Positions 3 through 56,474 of a stretch of 58,475 nucleotides of DNA are shown here, piece after piece; the first letter of the stretch is position 1; the number at the start of each line of letters is the position of its first letter. Source of the DNA: Candidatus Calescibacterium sp. (GTDB lineage Bacteria; Calescibacteriota; Calescibacteriia; Calescibacteriales; Calescibacteriaceae); assembly GCA_025060505.1 (NCBI GenBank), contig JANXBU010000013.1, positions 1 to 58,475 of the forward strand. The letters run 5' to 3'. The notes under the pieces were generated by a model. That model had not been told where the DNA came from. It was given only the letters and a program-made list of their open reading frames with translations, and did no database searches. The translations under genes were made by a program, and so were the position numbers.

Positions 3-2279
3 GGTGGTTCTGATGTTTTCATAGTTAAATTGAATAGTTCAGGTGCTGTACAGTGGACAAGAACAGTTGGAGGTAGTAGTCCAGATTCCGGTAAATCAGT
101 TATTCAAACATCAGATGGAGGATTTTTGGTGGTTGGCGATACTTCAAGCTTTGGCGGCTCAGATATACTTGTGGTAAAACTATATAGTTCAGGTGCTACT
201 CAATGGATAAAAACTATTGATGTGTCTTTCAGTCAGGATTTTGCCAACTCGGTTATTCAGAGTCCAGATGGAGGTTTTGTTATTGCTGGATATACTGTTT
301 CTTTTAGCGCTACAGACATTTACATAGTAAAATTAAATAGTGATGGTTCTATTCAGTGGACAAGAGGAATAGGCAATTCGCTAAGTTCTGAATACGGGGA
401 AGCCATAATAAATAGCGGTGATGGTGGATATTTTGTCGTTGGTTCAACGTCTTACGGTGCTTATTCTGATATACTTGTTGCACGTTTGAATAGCTCTGGC
501 GATCTTTTGTGGTCAAAAACAATCGGTGGTGCTAATAATGATTACGCATACTCTGTAACGCATGGGTCAGATGGAGGTTATGTATTGGTAGGTTATACGA
601 ATAGCTTCGGAGCTGGTTATCAAGACATATACTTGGTAAAAATAGCAGATGATGGTACTCTTGAATGCCGCGATCAATCGTATTCAACAAGTATATATAC
701 TGGTGGAGCAGGACAGTTCCAAAATCTTGTTTCATTTCCTCAAACTCCAACGTCAACTTCTCCAGCTCCCATATCATACACAGTAAGTTCAACAGACTAT
801 GCTCTGTGTGTTCAGAATTTTGCTGTGGCTATAGGAGGACCTAATTCTGATAGAGGAAATTCTATAATTCAGACACTGGATGGAGGATATTTGGTAGTAG
901 GTGAAACAGATATTGGAGCAGGTAATTTTGATGCTTATATAGTTAAATTGAATAGTTCAGGTGCTGTACAGTGGACAAGAACAGTTGGGGGCAGTAATGC
1001 AGATTACAGTAAATCAGTGATCCAAACATCAGATGGAGGGTACCTGATAGTAGGTGAAACAGATAGCTTTGGAGCAGGTCTTTTTGATGTTTATATAGTT
1101 AAATTAGATAGTTCAGGTGCTGTACAGTGGACAAGAACAGTTGGAGGTAGTGGTGCAGATTACGGTAAATCAGTGATCCAAACATCAGATGGGGGATACC
1201 TGATAGTAGGGGATACATCAAGCTTTGGAGCAGGTGGTTCTGATGTTTTCATAGTTAAATTGAATAGTTCAGGTGCTGTACAGTGGACAAGAACAGTTGG
1301 AGGTAGTGTTTATGATATAGGTAAATCAGTGATCCAAACATCAGATGGGGGATACCTGATAGTAGGGTATACATCAAGCTTTGGAGTAGGTGGTTCTGAT
1401 GTTTTCATAGTTAAATTAGATAGTTCAGGTGCTGTACAGTGGACAAGAACAGTTGGAGGAACAAATTCTGATGAGGGGAAATCTGTAATTCAAACTGCGG
1501 ATGGAGGGTACCTTATAGTTGGAGATACAGTTGGTCCAGGCAATGTAGACGTTCTTGTTGTGAAAACAGATAGCTCTGGAGATGTTCAGTGGCTCAGAAG
1601 AGTTGGGGGTAGCAATTATGACAGAGGCGAATCGGTAGTCCAGAGTTCAGATGGAGGCTACATCGTGGTAGGACATACTAGTAGCTTCGGAGCTGGTGGG
1701 GATATCTATGTAGTGAAGCTTGATAGCTCTGGCTTAGTTCAGTGGAATAAGACAATGGGAGGTAGTGATTTTGATTCTGGAGCTTCTATAATACAAAGCT
1801 CAGACGGGGGTTATGTTGTAATAGGAGGCACCTATAGCTTTGGTTCAGGTTGGGATGATATTTATGTTGCAAAAGTTGGTAGTGCTTTTGAAAACTGCTT
1901 TGTTCAAGGAGTTACGAATTATACTGTATTTTCTCCTGTGACATCCTCCGTTCTTCAGAGTCCATCATCATCTTCTCATTCTCCTGCATCCTATACTTTT
2001 TCCGTTACTCCATCTTCTGGTGGATCGTTAACTCAGATATGTTATTCGGCAGGTGCTCCGCCACTTCCTATGTGCTATGTGAATAGAGATTGTGATTTCC
2101 CATCCTTTGATAGATCTTTTGTTGTTGAGAATAACCAAGCACTAAAAGACAATACAACAAGAATATCGGGACAAAATACTGAAAGTTATGGATGCTCAGC
2201 TTCTGCATTTACCTTGGTTGTTGTTTATTTAATTTTCTCTGCCGCTGTTTTAAGAGCTTTCAGATATACAAAAAGATAA
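3..2279 (+). CDS. Large secreted beta-propeller repeat protein with C-terminal sorting-type tag (5' end outside window)
   Basis: The reading frame is open from the first bases, and the codons before the TTG at 30 already encode the same repeat, so the gene starts upstream. The visible part has eleven blades of about 52 residues with the pattern VQWxRTVGG...D.GKSVIQ, DGGYLIVG and D(V/I)(F/Y)IVKLDSSG. Four blades (30-650) are followed by a Cys-bounded linker (660-820), then exactly seven blades (about 820-1885) and a second linker of similar form. This suggests consecutive seven-bladed propellers each closed by a Cys...Cys insert. The C-terminus is Y-G-C-S-A-S, about 18 hydrophobic residues, then a basic end with R and K; the Cys is 28 residues from the stop. 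Such tripartite ends resemble MYXO-CTERM-type surface-sorting signals. The ligand and role are unknown. Family position is inferred from the repeat pattern only. Confidence 0.85.
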   Translation, partial: GGSDVFIVKLNSSGAVQWTRTVGGSSPDSGKSVIQTSDGGFLVVGDTSSFGGSDILVVKLYSSGATQWIKTIDVSFSQDFANSVIQSPDGGFVIAGYTVSFSATDIYIVKLNSDGSIQWTRGIGNSLSSEYGEAIINSGDGGYFVVGSTSYGAYSDILVARLNSSGDLLWSKTIGGANNDYAYSVTHGSDGGYVLVGYTNSFGAGYQDIYLVKIADDGTLECRDQSYSTSIYTGGAGQFQNLVSFPQTPTSTSPAPISYTVSSTDYALCVQNFAVAIGGPNSDRGNSIIQTLDGGYLVVGETDIGAGNFDAYIVKLNSSGAVQWTRTVGGSNADYSKSVIQTSDGGYLIVGETDSFGAGLFDVYIVKLDSSGAVQWTRTVGGSGADYGKSVIQTSDGGYLIVGDTSSFGAGGSDVFIVKLNSSGAVQWTRTVGGSVYDIGKSVIQTSDGGYLIVGYTSSFGVGGSDVFIVKLDSSGAVQWTRTVGGTNSDEGKSVIQTADGGYLIVGDTVGPGNVDVLVVKTDSSGDVQWLRRVGGSNYDRGESVVQSSDGGYIVVGHTSSFGAGGDIYVVKLDSSGLVQWNKTMGGSDFDSGASIIQSSDGGYVVIGGTYSFGSGWDDIYVAKVGSAFENCFVQGVTNYTVFSPVTSSVLQSPSSSSHSPASYTFSVTPSSGGSLTQICYSAGAPPLPMCYVNRDCDFPSFDRSFVVENNQALKDNTTRISGQNTESYGCSASAFTLVVVYLIFSAAVLRAFRYTKR
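954..1577 (+). repeat. Tandem 156-bp coding repeats (52-aa blades), nearly identical at DNA level
   Basis: The block beginning AGTTCAGGTGCTGTACAGTG recurs at 954, 1110, 1266 and 1422, exactly 156 bp apart, and again at 36. Within blades 6-8 the DNA is almost unchanged, including silent positions, while outer blades have diverged. This indicates recent expansion or gene conversion of the inner blades. Confidence 0.9.
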
Positions 2280-51713: not shown

Positions 51714-51719
51714 ATGCAT

Positions 51720-54700
51720 ATGAGGTTGGAGTGTTTGAGGGGAATAGATCTGAGTTTTCTGAGGCATATTCTTCACATACACGCAGCAATATTTGTGGTT
51801 TTGCTTTTTAATTTTGTTGGTTGTAGGAAAGGGAATCAGCAGGGGGTTGTGGAGGAAGCACCTTCTGTTATTTTTGTATCACCGCAAGATGGTCAGAGGG
51901 TGTCAGGGAATGTGCTGGTGAAGGTGGAGGTAGAGTCTGAAAGAGAGATAAGGAGGGTTGAGATATTCATAGATGGAGTGACAGTGGCTACATTCCAGAG
52001 TCCGCCGTATGAATATCAATGGAGCACGACAGCAGTAGAGGATGGAGCACACATAATAAGAGCCATGGCAGTGGATGAAGGGGATAGGATAGGAACAGAT
52101 AGGATAATGGTGTTGGTAAGGAACGCGGTAGGAGGAGTTTCGGGAGGAACAGGAGGGAGTGGTAGTTCTGGAGGAGGAACAACTGGTGCAGGAGGAGGAG
52201 CAGGTGGTGATGTTAGTGGTTCAGGAGGAGGAAGCGGAGGAGCAACAGGAGGAGGAGTTTCGGGAGGTAGTGGTTCAGGAGGAGGAAGTGGAGGATCGGC
52301 TGGAGGAGATGGTCAAGTTTTGGTTGATAACTACCCGTTTGTGAGGATAATAAGACCGCTGGATGGTCAGAGGTTAGTTGGAATTGTGTCTGTTGAGGCA
52401 GAGGCTTCTGATGATAGAGGTATTAGGAGAGTAGATTTTCATGTCAACAGCACAAGAGTAAGGACATACAGTTCTGGAGGTACTGTGTATACATACGAGT
52501 GGGATACGACATTGGTTCCCGATGGAGTGCATGTGATACGAGTGCAGGTGGAGGATACGGGTGGGAAGATAGGTCAGGACAAGGTAGTGGTATACGTTGA
52601 GAATTTGACGTTATCACGAGCGTGTCAGACACCGCAGACATTTTATTATGATTTTGATAGAGACGGATATGGAGATTTTGGTAGGCAGTTGACATCGTGT
52701 GTGGCACCAGAAGGATTTGTGAGGAGGGGAGGAGATTGCAATGATACAGATCCGAATATAAATCCAGCTTCTCCAGAGATATGCGATGGGATAGATAACA
52801 ACTGCAATGGAGTGGTGGATGAGGGAGTAGTAAGGGTGTTTTACAGGGATCGTGATGTAGACGGATACACAGATGGAACAACGGCGGTAGGATGCACAGC
52901 GCCAGCGGGGTATGCTGTGCTTGTTCCGGGAGGAGATTGTAATGATACAGATCCGAGTAGAAATCCTTCTGTTCCGGAGATATGTGATGGGATAGATAAC
53001 AACTGCAATGGAGCAGTAGATGATATTCCATTGTGTGCTGATTTCGGCTCAGTTCCAACTGCTCCATATGCAAATACACCGTATCCGCTGTCTCCGACAC
53101 AGATTTTTGTTTCTTGGATTGATCTTTCTACAAACGAACTTGGTTTCAGGATAAAGAGGGGATTGAATGCAAATTCATTGGTTGTGGTGGCAAGCGTTGG
53201 TGTAGGTGTTGAGACTTACATAGACGCAGGACTGAACCACTCAACACAGTATTTTTATCAGATATGTGCGTTTTCGCTTGGGGGAGAGAGATGTTCTTCA
53301 GTTGTGTCTGCGACAACACTCACACCACAGCCACCGTCACCACCGACGCTTCAGCAGATACAGGCCATAACAGCAAATCAGATAAATCTTCTGTGGTCAG
53401 ATAACTCTGTGGATGAGGTGGGCTTTTATGTTGAAAGGAGTTTGGACGGGACAGATTACACAAGAGTAGCAACGCTTGTGGCGAATGTAACGAGTTGGTC
53501 AGACACGGGGGTTCTGCCGGACAGAACATACTACTACCGAGTGAGAGCGTATAACCAGTTTGGTCAGTCTAATCCGTCAAACGTTCTGAGTGCGACAACA
53601 CCATCAAACTCTGCACCGTCAGCGCCATCAGGTCTGACAGCGCAGGCTCTTTCACGCTCATCAATACGACTGAGATGGCAGGACAACTCAACAAACGAGG
53701 ATGGATTCAAGATAGCAAGGAGTCAAGATGGGAACAACTTCACTTTTGTTGCTCTGGTTGCACCGAACCAAACAGAGTATACAGATACAAATCTTATATC
53801 AAACACGGTTTACTACTACAGGGTAGTAGCTTTCAATGAGGTGGGTAACTCTTTGCCATCGAACATAACATATGCGCAGACGTTTCCGGAGACAAATCCA
53901 CAGTCACCGACGAACTTAGAAGCAGATGCAGTATCTTCAACGGAGGTGGCATTGAGGTGGCAAGACAACTCAGACAACGAGACAGGATTTGTTATTGAGA
54001 GAAGGAAGGATGGTACTCCAAACTGGCAGGTTGTGGTGGTAACTTCTTTGAACAATACGAGCTATATTGATACAGGACTGGAGGCAAACACGAGGTATCA
54101 TTACCGTGTTTCTGCGACAAATGATGCAGGTATGTCATCAGGTGCAATTACAGAGGTTGTGACACAGAAAGGGCAGTGTCAGAACTTTCCGGTGGATGGG
54201 AGAGGATTTCTGATAGCGGATGTAACAGGAGACGGGAGAAACGAGATAGTGGCTATATCAGGTGATGGAAGGTTGGTATATATTTACTCATCAACTGGTT
54301 CTTTCGTTGGCCTGATTGGTTCCAGCTATGAGATTTCTTCTTTATCCATAGGAGATGTAAATGCCGATGGTAGAGCAGATATTTTGTTTGCTGATAGTGG
54401 AGGTATAGTTTGGGCGTACTCATATCAGAGTTGTCCGACTTCTGTGTTCAGTGGAGCGGAGGACGGGGAGCCATTGTGGGATATGGATGCTCCATACTGG
54501 GTAAGGACGAGCGAGGACAGGCGTTCTGGGAACTACTCTTTCAAGGCAACAGGGGGAACGAACTGGGATGGATATTACATCACATCTCCTGTGATAAACA
54601 TAGGTTGTGATACAGGTTTTGTGATTGAATTTTGGGCTAAGTGGAATTTGGATAATGCAAATGTATGTCTTGAAGTTTGGACTGGAAGTGGCTGGAGTGG

Positions 54701-56474
54701 GTGTATATGGATAGGTTGGGATGCTTCTCCATGGAGCAGACAAGTTGTAGATATATCAAGTTATGTATCTGGAGCAACCACTGCTGTAAGGTTCGGGATT
54801 TGGGGAAACAATGCATCTGCAAACTTTTATGTGGATGATATAAGAGTTTTATCAGGTCGTACGAGGAGACTATGGGATGTGAATATTGGAGGATGGAAAG
54901 TCTTATCGGATGACCTTGATGGAGACGGAAGAGTTGAGATCATTGTGGAAGGAGGAAACGGGATATTCCTTCTTTCATCAGGAGGTTCAGTTATTTTTGG
55001 ACCTGTGGATGGAGGAGTAAGAGCTTTTGGAGATGTTGACGGTGATGGGGTGAAGGAGATAGTGGGAATAAGAGATGGTAATGTGTATGCATACAAGATT
55101 ACAGGGGTTTTGGTTTCTGGATATCCGATAATTGGGATTGGAGCTCGAGACCTTGTTGTGTTTGACATAGATAGGGATGGAATAGAGGAGGTGATAGTTT
55201 CGACATCAGATGGTATCAGAGCATACAAGGGTTCGTCTTCGTTGTGGTATGTTCAGATGGGACAGAGTGTAGATGTTGTTTCTTCCTGCGATATAAACGC
55301 AGACGGTTTTGTGGATATCATTGGTGGGAGAGAAGATAAGGTTTATGCAGTAAGGGCGACAACGGGTAGCAGTTTGTGGAGTTATGACTGGGGAGTTACC
55401 AGATCCTTTTCATTTGGAGATATAGACGGGGATGGGAGGCTGAATGTTCTGTTTAACCAAAATGAAAGGATATACATATTAGATGACAATGGAGCAAACA
55501 GGTTTGGTTGGCCAAGGTATGTAGGTGAGAGTCAAAGAATCGCACCGGCCATAGCAGATATAGACGGAGATGGATTTGTAGATATAATTGTTGGAGGAAG
55601 TAGATGTCCTTTTGGTCAGAGTTGTCCTTCTCCTCGTCAGGCTCTATATGCTTTCAACATAACGGGAGGTCTGATCAGTGGCTTTCCGACTTCTTTAGAT
55701 TGGAATATAAGAGATATTCTCATTGATGACCTCGATAGAGATGGTAAGCCTGAGATACTTGCGTCTACACATTATTTTGATATGAATAATATGACGGATA
55801 GATATTTCATTTCCTGCTGGAAGGGAGAGGGGTACAGAGAAGATAAGGCACTCTGGCCTCTTCCATACGAAAGAGCTAATATGGGAGTGTGGCGTGAAGA
55901 AGGATGGTGGGATGAACCAAGATACTCCTACCGTCGTTCATTTGATTATGAGTTCAATGATACTCCAACGAGGGCTATGTATATTTCGGACATTTATCGT
56001 CCAATAAATGCATACATATGGAGGTCAGGAGATGTAGATTGGTATAAGTTTACTGTCACCGCTGGGGCGCGTCTCAGAGTTGAGCTAAGTTCTCTTCCGG
56101 CAAACTATGATATTCAGTTATATAGTTCAGTGATAACGCAGAATCCAAATGCGACACCTGTTGCTCAATCTACGAACTCTGGAAACATGGGAGAGGTGAT
56201 AGAATACAATGTTCCTGCAACCGGGTGGTATTTCATAAAGGTATATGGTAGCGGTAATACATTTTCTGTGTCTGATCCGTATATGCTGAAAGTAAGTATA
56301 GTTAATGCATCGCCTGCACCGAGAATTGGTGTAGGAGGATTAGATGTTGAAGGAGGAGTAGTAGAGTCAGATAGGTATGGATGCTCATCGTCTTCTGTGT
56401 CTTTATGGACTGTGTTTGCTCTTGTATGTATAGTTTTGAGGGAGGTAGGTAGGAGATTTTATAGGTTGAAGTGA
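51720..56474 (+). CDS. Giant multidomain surface lipoprotein (Ig, MopE, FN3, FG-GAP, PPC) with C-terminal tag
   Basis: The protein has 1584 residues (a further in-frame ATG lies at 51714). Domains in order: signal peptide with lipobox FVGC (Cys35); Ig-like (about 48-137); Gly/Ser-rich linker (138-197); second Ig-like (201-297); two MopE-type metal-binding repeats with GGDCNDTDP and EICDGIDNNCNG (303-440); four FN3 domains (441-818); FG-GAP/VCBS blocks with D-x-D-GDG calcium loops (822-900, 1050-1360), interrupted by a MAM/jelly-roll-like domain (903-1047); and a PPC domain (about 1408-1535). The end is Y-G-C-S-S-S, a hydrophobic helix, then GRRFYRLK. It therefore has a possible lipid anchor at the N-terminus and a sorting-type anchor at the C-terminus. 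An adhesion or surface-binding role is plausible; no enzyme domain is seen. Confidence 0.88.
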   Translation: MRLECLRGIDLSFLRHILHIHAAIFVVLLFNFVGCRKGNQQGVVEEAPSVIFVSPQDGQRVSGNVLVKVEVESEREIRRVEIFIDGVTVATFQSPPYEYQWSTTAVEDGAHIIRAMAVDEGDRIGTDRIMVLVRNAVGGVSGGTGGSGSSGGGTTGAGGGAGGDVSGSGGGSGGATGGGVSGGSGSGGGSGGSAGGDGQVLVDNYPFVRIIRPLDGQRLVGIVSVEAEASDDRGIRRVDFHVNSTRVRTYSSGGTVYTYEWDTTLVPDGVHVIRVQVEDTGGKIGQDKVVVYVENLTLSRACQTPQTFYYDFDRDGYGDFGRQLTSCVAPEGFVRRGGDCNDTDPNINPASPEICDGIDNNCNGVVDEGVVRVFYRDRDVDGYTDGTTAVGCTAPAGYAVLVPGGDCNDTDPSRNPSVPEICDGIDNNCNGAVDDIPLCADFGSVPTAPYANTPYPLSPTQIFVSWIDLSTNELGFRIKRGLNANSLVVVASVGVGVETYIDAGLNHSTQYFYQICAFSLGGERCSSVVSATTLTPQPPSPPTLQQIQAITANQINLLWSDNSVDEVGFYVERSLDGTDYTRVATLVANVTSWSDTGVLPDRTYYYRVRAYNQFGQSNPSNVLSATTPSNSAPSAPSGLTAQALSRSSIRLRWQDNSTNEDGFKIARSQDGNNFTFVALVAPNQTEYTDTNLISNTVYYYRVVAFNEVGNSLPSNITYAQTFPETNPQSPTNLEADAVSSTEVALRWQDNSDNETGFVIERRKDGTPNWQVVVVTSLNNTSYIDTGLEANTRYHYRVSATNDAGMSSGAITEVVTQKGQCQNFPVDGRGFLIADVTGDGRNEIVAISGDGRLVYIYSSTGSFVGLIGSSYEISSLSIGDVNADGRADILFADSGGIVWAYSYQSCPTSVFSGAEDGEPLWDMDAPYWVRTSEDRRSGNYSFKATGGTNWDGYYITSPVINIGCDTGFVIEFWAKWNLDNANVCLEVWTGSGWSGCIWIGWDASPWSRQVVDISSYVSGATTAVRFGIWGNNASANFYVDDIRVLSGRTRRLWDVNIGGWKVLSDDLDGDGRVEIIVEGGNGIFLLSSGGSVIFGPVDGGVRAFGDVDGDGVKEIVGIRDGNVYAYKITGVLVSGYPIIGIGARDLVVFDIDRDGIEEVIVSTSDGIRAYKGSSSLWYVQMGQSVDVVSSCDINADGFVDIIGGREDKVYAVRATTGSSLWSYDWGVTRSFSFGDIDGDGRLNVLFNQNERIYILDDNGANRFGWPRYVGESQRIAPAIADIDGDGFVDIIVGGSRCPFGQSCPSPRQALYAFNITGGLISGFPTSLDWNIRDILIDDLDRDGKPEILASTHYFDMNNMTDRYFISCWKGEGYREDKALWPLPYERANMGVWREEGWWDEPRYSYRRSFDYEFNDTPTRAMYISDIYRPINAYIWRSGDVDWYKFTVTAGARLRVELSSLPANYDIQLYSSVITQNPNATPVAQSTNSGNMGEVIEYNVPATGWYFIKVYGSGNTFSVSDPYMLKVSIVNASPAPRIGVGGLDVEGGVVESDRYGCSSSSVSLWTVFALVCIVLREVGRRFYRLK
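52131..52294 (+). repeat. Purine-rich imperfect repeats coding the Gly/Ser linker
   Basis: GGAGGAGTTTCGGGAGG occurs at 52131 and 52251 (120-bp period), and AGTGGTTCAGGAGGAGGAAG at 52215 and 52269 (54-bp period). The coding strand is dense in AGGAGG, that is, many internal Shine-Dalgarno-like sequences. Confidence 0.75.

Follow-up and report, generated by a model that had tools for sequence, protein, structure and literature searches.

A Cys-containing C-terminal tag on exported proteins of Candidatus Calescibacterium and its probable link to a myxosortase-like protease

The window, meaning the whole 58,475-nucleotide stretch of DNA analyzed here, is a complete contig (C20) of a 2.28-Mb genome (86% complete, 115 contigs) from an uncultured hot-spring bacterium of the Candidatus Calescibacterium lineage ("Calescamantes"). 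It encodes two large proteins that end alike (Table 1). Protein 1 runs off the edge of this contig and so lacks its N-terminus; its size is at least 758 amino acids. The C-termini read ...TESYGCSASAFTLVVVYLIFSAAVLRAFRYTKR (protein 1, stop at 2279) and ...VESDRYGCSSSSVSLWTVFALVCIVLREVGRRFYRLK (protein 2, stop at 56474); both consist of YGCS(A/S)S, then a hydrophobic stretch, then a basic tail, which confirms that the tag proposed in an earlier sequence-only reading is common to the two. The tag Cys is followed by 27 residues in protein 1 and by 29 in protein 2, in agreement with the distances of 28 and 30 given earlier once the stop is counted. A Glu-Ser pair had been placed directly before YGCS in both proteins; it stands there in protein 1, but protein 2 reads ES-DR-YGCS. 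Outside the tag, the two proteins are unrelated as judged by blastp.

Table 1. Coordinates of the tagged proteins, tags and candidate enzymes (positions without a prefix refer to the window; G000 is the source genome)
Feature	Location	Strand	Remarks
Tagged putative surface protein 1	3..2279	+	DUF5122 / delta-60 repeat beta-propeller (Pfam, NCBIfam); N-terminus cut off by the contig edge
C-terminal tag 1: ESYGCSASAFTLVVVYLIFSAAVLRAFRYTKR-stop	2181..2279	+	Cys codon 2193-2195
Tagged putative surface protein 2, 1586 aa	51714..56474	+	Big_7, MopE metal-binding motifs, FN3, FG-GAP, PPC
Lipoprotein-like N-terminal signal of protein 2 (...VVLLFNFVGC, Cys37)	51714..51824	+	Sequence inspection
C-terminal tag 2: YGCSSSSVSLWTVFALVCIVLREVGRRFYRLK-stop	56376..56474	+	Cys codon 56382-56384
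Sole PF02517 (CPBP, Rce1-like) protein of the source genome, 219 aa	G000:C38:28716-29012	-	74 bits, cut-off 22.4
Second, diverged Lgt paralog	G000:C115:50997-51737 (L221:4001-4795)	+	Orthologs L222-L225
Tagged 1377-aa protein	L189:13100-18578	-	Adjoins T2SS GspG gene and another pseudopilin gene
Internal tag in one open frame	L201:3058-9000	+	Relative's genome
Internal tag in one open frame	L210:3154-9501	+	Relative's genome
Internal tag in one open frame	L209:460-6669	-	Relative's genome
Internal tag in one open frame	L197:4554-7991	-	Relative's genome

We next looked into how far the tag recurs in the source genome. A search for the YGCS pattern at the DNA level returned three real tags, one of them new (C38:158967); the other five matches fell in non-tag contexts, and YGCS was set aside as a signature. 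A profile built from three tails found two proteins outside its training set, ending in ...EEGGGCSSTSPYSLYTLFALIVLVIMRSIKSVRNF (E value = 4e-5) and ...ENAGILGCSTASVSWIVFAGVMISLAIIRRRING (E value = 0.005), and later profile rounds added ...NKNYGCSIFSFGSISSAILFSIIILYMLMRKRKSIFKQKI and ...QPFGCACKSSGGAGVLSSIFVFVFLILYLRVRKIKLCRE, for a total of seven, which as a count from profile searches is read as at least seven. Confinement of the tag to the two window proteins, which the sequence-only reading had held up against its own proposal, was thereby contradicted. Each of the seven tails has a 17-residue stretch whose hydropathy averages 2.0 or more, followed by an end that is net positive. The tagged proteins, which include an M6 peptidase, a protein with a peptidase M19 match and Ig/PKD/FG-GAP proteins, are mostly unrelated; the sole blastp match among them was weak and joined two FG-GAP proteins. 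By inspection, all six with an intact N-terminus begin with a signal-peptide-like or lipoprotein-like segment. The lipoprotein-like kind was found in three of the six, and its combination with the C-terminal Cys tag suggests that such proteins may be anchored at both ends.

The search was then widened to 60 genomes. The lineage set comprised the source genome and four relatives (G001 to G004), with completeness of 82 to 86%; the relatives, which were the only other members of the family returned, match, in no set order, Candidatus Calescibacterium nevadense (AWOA01000098.1), Bacterium HR19 (BEHV01000002.1), JAUQOU010000003.1 and CALHPK010000006.1. The outgroup comprised 55 genomes that are kin to the lineage at the domain level only. 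The source-genome profile gave matches with E values below 1e-3 in three of the four relatives and an E value of 0.018 in the fourth, all confirmed by reading. With the subsequent profiles, long open frames in all four relatives proved to close with tags that had played no part in training (E values down to 1.3e-5). In the 55 outgroup genomes, the source-genome profile returned nothing below an E value of 0.008. With a 13-tail profile followed by reading, we counted 30 tags across the five lineage genomes (7 in the source genome, 7 in G001, 4 in G002, 9 in G003 and 3 in G004), 26 at the end of an open frame and 4 internal. Some profile matches, for example on G000:C33 and G004:C52, were discarded on reading. 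The genome-wide profile search and tag count that had been called for thus gave at least 7 carriers in the source genome and about 30 in the lineage.

Among the 30 tails, Cys is present in all 30, Gly before it in 29 and Ser after it in 24, giving the core G-C-S-(S/T/A), which in every tail is followed by a hydrophobic stretch and then by basic residues. The residue before the core is most often Gly (13/30); Tyr stands there in only 7/30, and the YGCS core named earlier has to be reduced to G-C-S as the conserved part. In one tag (LLSCQSSSFISQINIILLIAVVFLFYLIKAKGKSRNI, G002:C9:40687-40779, L206) SC replaces GC; it is possibly a natural variant and is the least certain of the 30.

In three of the four internal tags, two of which are orthologs, the basic tail leads into a second signal-peptide-like segment and then into a region that, by reading, is beta-rich and barrel-like; in the fourth, the basic tail runs into a lipoprotein-like segment. 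Pfam searches of the regions after the internal tags gave only a CarboxypepD_reg-like match, in one of them. These frames look like polyproteins to be cut in two and have a parallel in M. xanthus MXAN_5598, which has a similar internal-tag layout (PMC11980579).

We compared the 30 tails singly with 18,950 NCBIfam models. The most frequent matches were to JDVT-CTERM (three), MYXO-CTERM (two), GC_trans_RRR, which is also a MYXO-CTERM model (two), and a MYXO-CTERM-anchored family (two); other models were matched once each, among them PVV-, GlyGly- and Synerg-CTERM. Two tails, both in relatives, passed MYXO-CTERM cut-offs marginally, one with 20.6 bits (TIGR03901, cut-off 20) and one with 16.8 bits (TIGR03382, cut-off 15.85), and no further pass was seen among the 30. 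TIGR03901 gave no match in the source genome at an E value of 10 or less. The two window tails matched no CTERM model at all. The question of whether the tag belongs to a named family therefore has a divided answer, with no model matching the window tags and 2/30 lineage tails marginally within MYXO-CTERM; because both passing tails lie in relatives and the source genome is without a match, we class the window tags outside MYXO-CTERM, as a divergent tag that probably functions in a similar way.

A candidate enzyme was found elsewhere in the genome. The window encodes no PF02517 protease, in line with the sequence-only reading, and the only such protein in the genome sits on contig C38. Its gene adjoins no tagged gene, three tagged genes share its contig, and its neighborhood has no conserved adjacent partner in the relatives. 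The top NCBIfam matches of this protein were MrtP (101.7 bits, cut-off 250) and Mrt_core (97.0 to 98.6 bits, cut-off 100), followed by MrtC (92.8 bits, cut-off 195) and MrtX (76 bits, cut-off 180); it lies below the curated cut-offs of all four models (NF040674, NF040914, NF040594 and NF040593, respectively). When the 60 genomes were scanned with Mrt_core, each lineage genome had one protein at 88 to 99 bits (5/5), eight myxosortase-like proteins of the outgroup scored 82 to 142 bits, and other CPBP proteins scored at most 44. In an alignment-based scan of named genome contigs, the named relatives found were overwhelmingly from Myxococcota/deltaproteobacteria; the same kind of scan with the single protease sequence as the query returned no matches. 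Among the flanks read around proteases of other phyla, only one obvious tag was seen (L129).

The residues and fold of the protease were also compared with those of known enzymes. Its catalytic set is EExxxR/H/HxxxN, with a spacing (E128-H170-H206-N210) that differs by no more than one residue from that of the MrtX catalytic residues (E146-H188-H223-N227) (PMC11980579). The positions that do not vary over 24 sequences are PEE, the F-F-R-G residues, H, the P of FFP and H...N. Of the lineage proteases, 5/5 carry an F(F/V)P motif before the last catalytic helix, as do 8/8 and 15/16 myxosortase-like proteins versus 0/15 generic CPBP proteins, which favors placing the lineage proteases among the myxosortases. 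A tree of the 125-column core did not separate placement of the lineage proteins inside the myxosortases from placement outside them: support was weak (46/73), and neither grouping was rejected (AU test, P value = 0.26 and 0.43). For the enzyme from C. nevadense, AlphaFold2 gave a model with a mean pLDDT of 93.2. Foldseek returned a single credible PDB match for this model, the archaeal Rce1 structure 4cad (probability 1.00, TM-score 0.50, E value = 0.037), the next match other than 4cad having a probability of 0.08. A sequence search of the protease against the PDB gave no match.

We put at roughly 0.8 the probability that the tag is a divergent Cys-containing CTERM sorting signal, likely cut by the myxosortase-like CPBP protease of the lineage. 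The best reading of the sequences is that tag and protease form a variant of the known Cys-CTERM kind, as are MYXO-, JDVT-, Synerg- and CGP-CTERM, and not a new kind. The sequence-only reading had named MYXO-CTERM but, not recognizing the core, proposed a candidate new sorting signal; a new kind of signal is not supported, since the best tail matches, though weak, are to Cys-CTERM models, and the protease is closest to myxosortases. Its other suggestion, a tripartite CTERM layout with a plausible dedicated intramembrane protease, has held, with one myxosortase-like gene in 5/5 lineage genomes, a co-occurrence that, coming from five genomes of one family, amounts to one evolutionary event.

By analogy with MYXO-CTERM, we infer cleavage, the position of the cut, lipidation, a surface destination and the action of the protease on the tag. 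Tagged proteins would leave the cytoplasm by Sec, and the C-terminal helix would keep the exported protein in the inner membrane. The invariant Cys of GC(S) would probably be lipidated, the myxosortase-like CPBP glutamic intramembrane protease would remove the helix and basic tail, and the lipid-anchored product would go to surface display, possibly through a type II secretion system. In the MrtX/TraA pair, which has experimental support, cleavage needs the Cys and MrtX and takes place in E. coli too when MrtX is present; the same study proposes that a possibly Lgt-like enzyme lipidates the MYXO-CTERM Cys (PMC11980579).

The main rival holds that the tails are uncut membrane anchors, with a Cys that is acylated or forms a disulfide and a CPBP protease that has another job. 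A helix with a basic tail can anchor a protein by itself, and the three tagged proteins with a lipoprotein-like N-terminal signal could be anchored without processing. Other functions are known for some CPBP proteins, S. aureus LnsB among them. However, 29/30 tails, on proteins that are mostly unrelated, retain Gly-Cys while the helix sequence is free to vary, and the sole CPBP protease of the genome is of the myxosortase type, as is one in every lineage genome. In one orthologous group, formed by seven lipoprotein-like proteins, identity is 63% in the tag core versus 31% in the linker and 39% in the helix (body, 51%). Moreover, internal tags that precede a new signal-like segment make the most sense if they are cut. 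We consider uncut anchors unlikely.

Another enzyme might do the cutting, namely, a lineage rhomboid, as rhombosortase does with GlyGly-CTERM. The GlyGly-CTERM tag likewise has Gly, a helix and a basic tail at the C-terminus, each of the five lineage genomes has one rhomboid over cut-off, and GlyGly_CTERM gives a weak match to one internal tag (14.1 bits, cut-off 15.5). Yet rhomboids are also present in 14/14 control genomes, the source-genome rhomboid fails as a rhombosortase (TIGR03902, 19.1 bits versus a cut-off of 84), and the invariant residue of the lineage tag is Cys, as in myxosortase substrates. We regard this reading as very improbable. Finally, it is scarcely credible that the likeness of the tags comes from chance helices with a nearby Cys or from shared protein ancestry: single-tail scores are weak and profiles of short hydrophobic stretches easily yield false matches, but untrained tags end long exported proteins in five genomes, the search of the 55 outgroup genomes gave nothing below an E value of 0.008, and the carriers are mostly unrelated.

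The divergent Cys-CTERM signal that we favor can be set beside the known systems. It is like MYXO-CTERM in its tripartite tag of invariant Cys, helix and basic tail on signal-peptide-bearing surface proteins, in the occasional internal tags before a barrel-like domain and in the T2SS gene near one substrate, and like the myxosortases, its putative enzyme is of the CPBP type and carries the EExxxR and HxxxN motifs. In contrast, the MYXO-CTERM signature is described as "generic GCGC" (Guo, Haft and Wall 2025, PMC11980579), versus GC(S)(S/T/A) in the Calescibacterium lineage. The lineage also lies outside Myxococcota, many of its substrates have lipoprotein-like N-terminal signals as well, and its protease falls just under the Mrt_core cut-off and far under those of MrtX, MrtC and MrtP. 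JDVT-CTERM/MrtJ and Synerg-CTERM/MrtS also pair a Cys tag with a CPBP protease and gave weak tail matches (three for JDVT, one for Synerg), but none of the reported lineage tail matches to them was over cut-off, the source-genome protease scored 55.6 with MrtJ (cut-off 75) and 73.3 with MrtS (cut-off 130), and no two-gene protease/substrate pair was seen around it. PEP-CTERM/exosortase shares the overall tripartite layout but has another signature. No exosortase (PF09721) was over cut-off in the five lineage genomes (best score, 15.3 versus a cut-off of 25.7), and exosortase is not supported as the tag-processing enzyme.

We found no report of Cys-CTERM/myxosortase sorting in Calescamantes in the literature searched, which stopped short of the 2024 survey by Haft. 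If the favored reading is right, myxosortase-type sorting, itself recently established, would extend to an uncultured thermophilic phylum. In addition, surface proteins of the lineage are probably misannotated because the curated models miss the signature.

The lineage also has a candidate for modifying the Cys. A diverged Lgt-like second copy is present in 5/5 lineage genomes, with a fused C-terminal extension in four; the GCCYG motif of this paralog is also found in the ordinary Lgt of lineage genomes. At least two Lgt-like matches were found in 3/8 other myxosortase-bearing genomes versus 3/47 genomes without a myxosortase (Fisher test, P value = 0.034), in a comparison whose detection used a lineage-specific profile and whose split was chosen after the data had been seen. 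Additional Lgt-like copies are thus only weakly linked to myxosortases outside the lineage, as a lead. One could go further and propose a separate Calescibacterota Cys-CTERM system that anchors many substrates by an N-terminal lipoprotein signal and by the processed C-terminal Cys as well, with the second Lgt as a dedicated acyltransferase for the C-terminal Cys, but we hold this to be unlikely. With one CPBP protease, at least seven substrates and a second Lgt paralog, the lineage may offer a compact natural case for what modifies the Cys before cleavage.

The tagged 1377-aa protein is the one whose gene neighbors type II secretion genes. The order of tagged gene, GspG gene and pseudopilin gene is kept in G003 (L213); the part read of another relative's genome did not show it.
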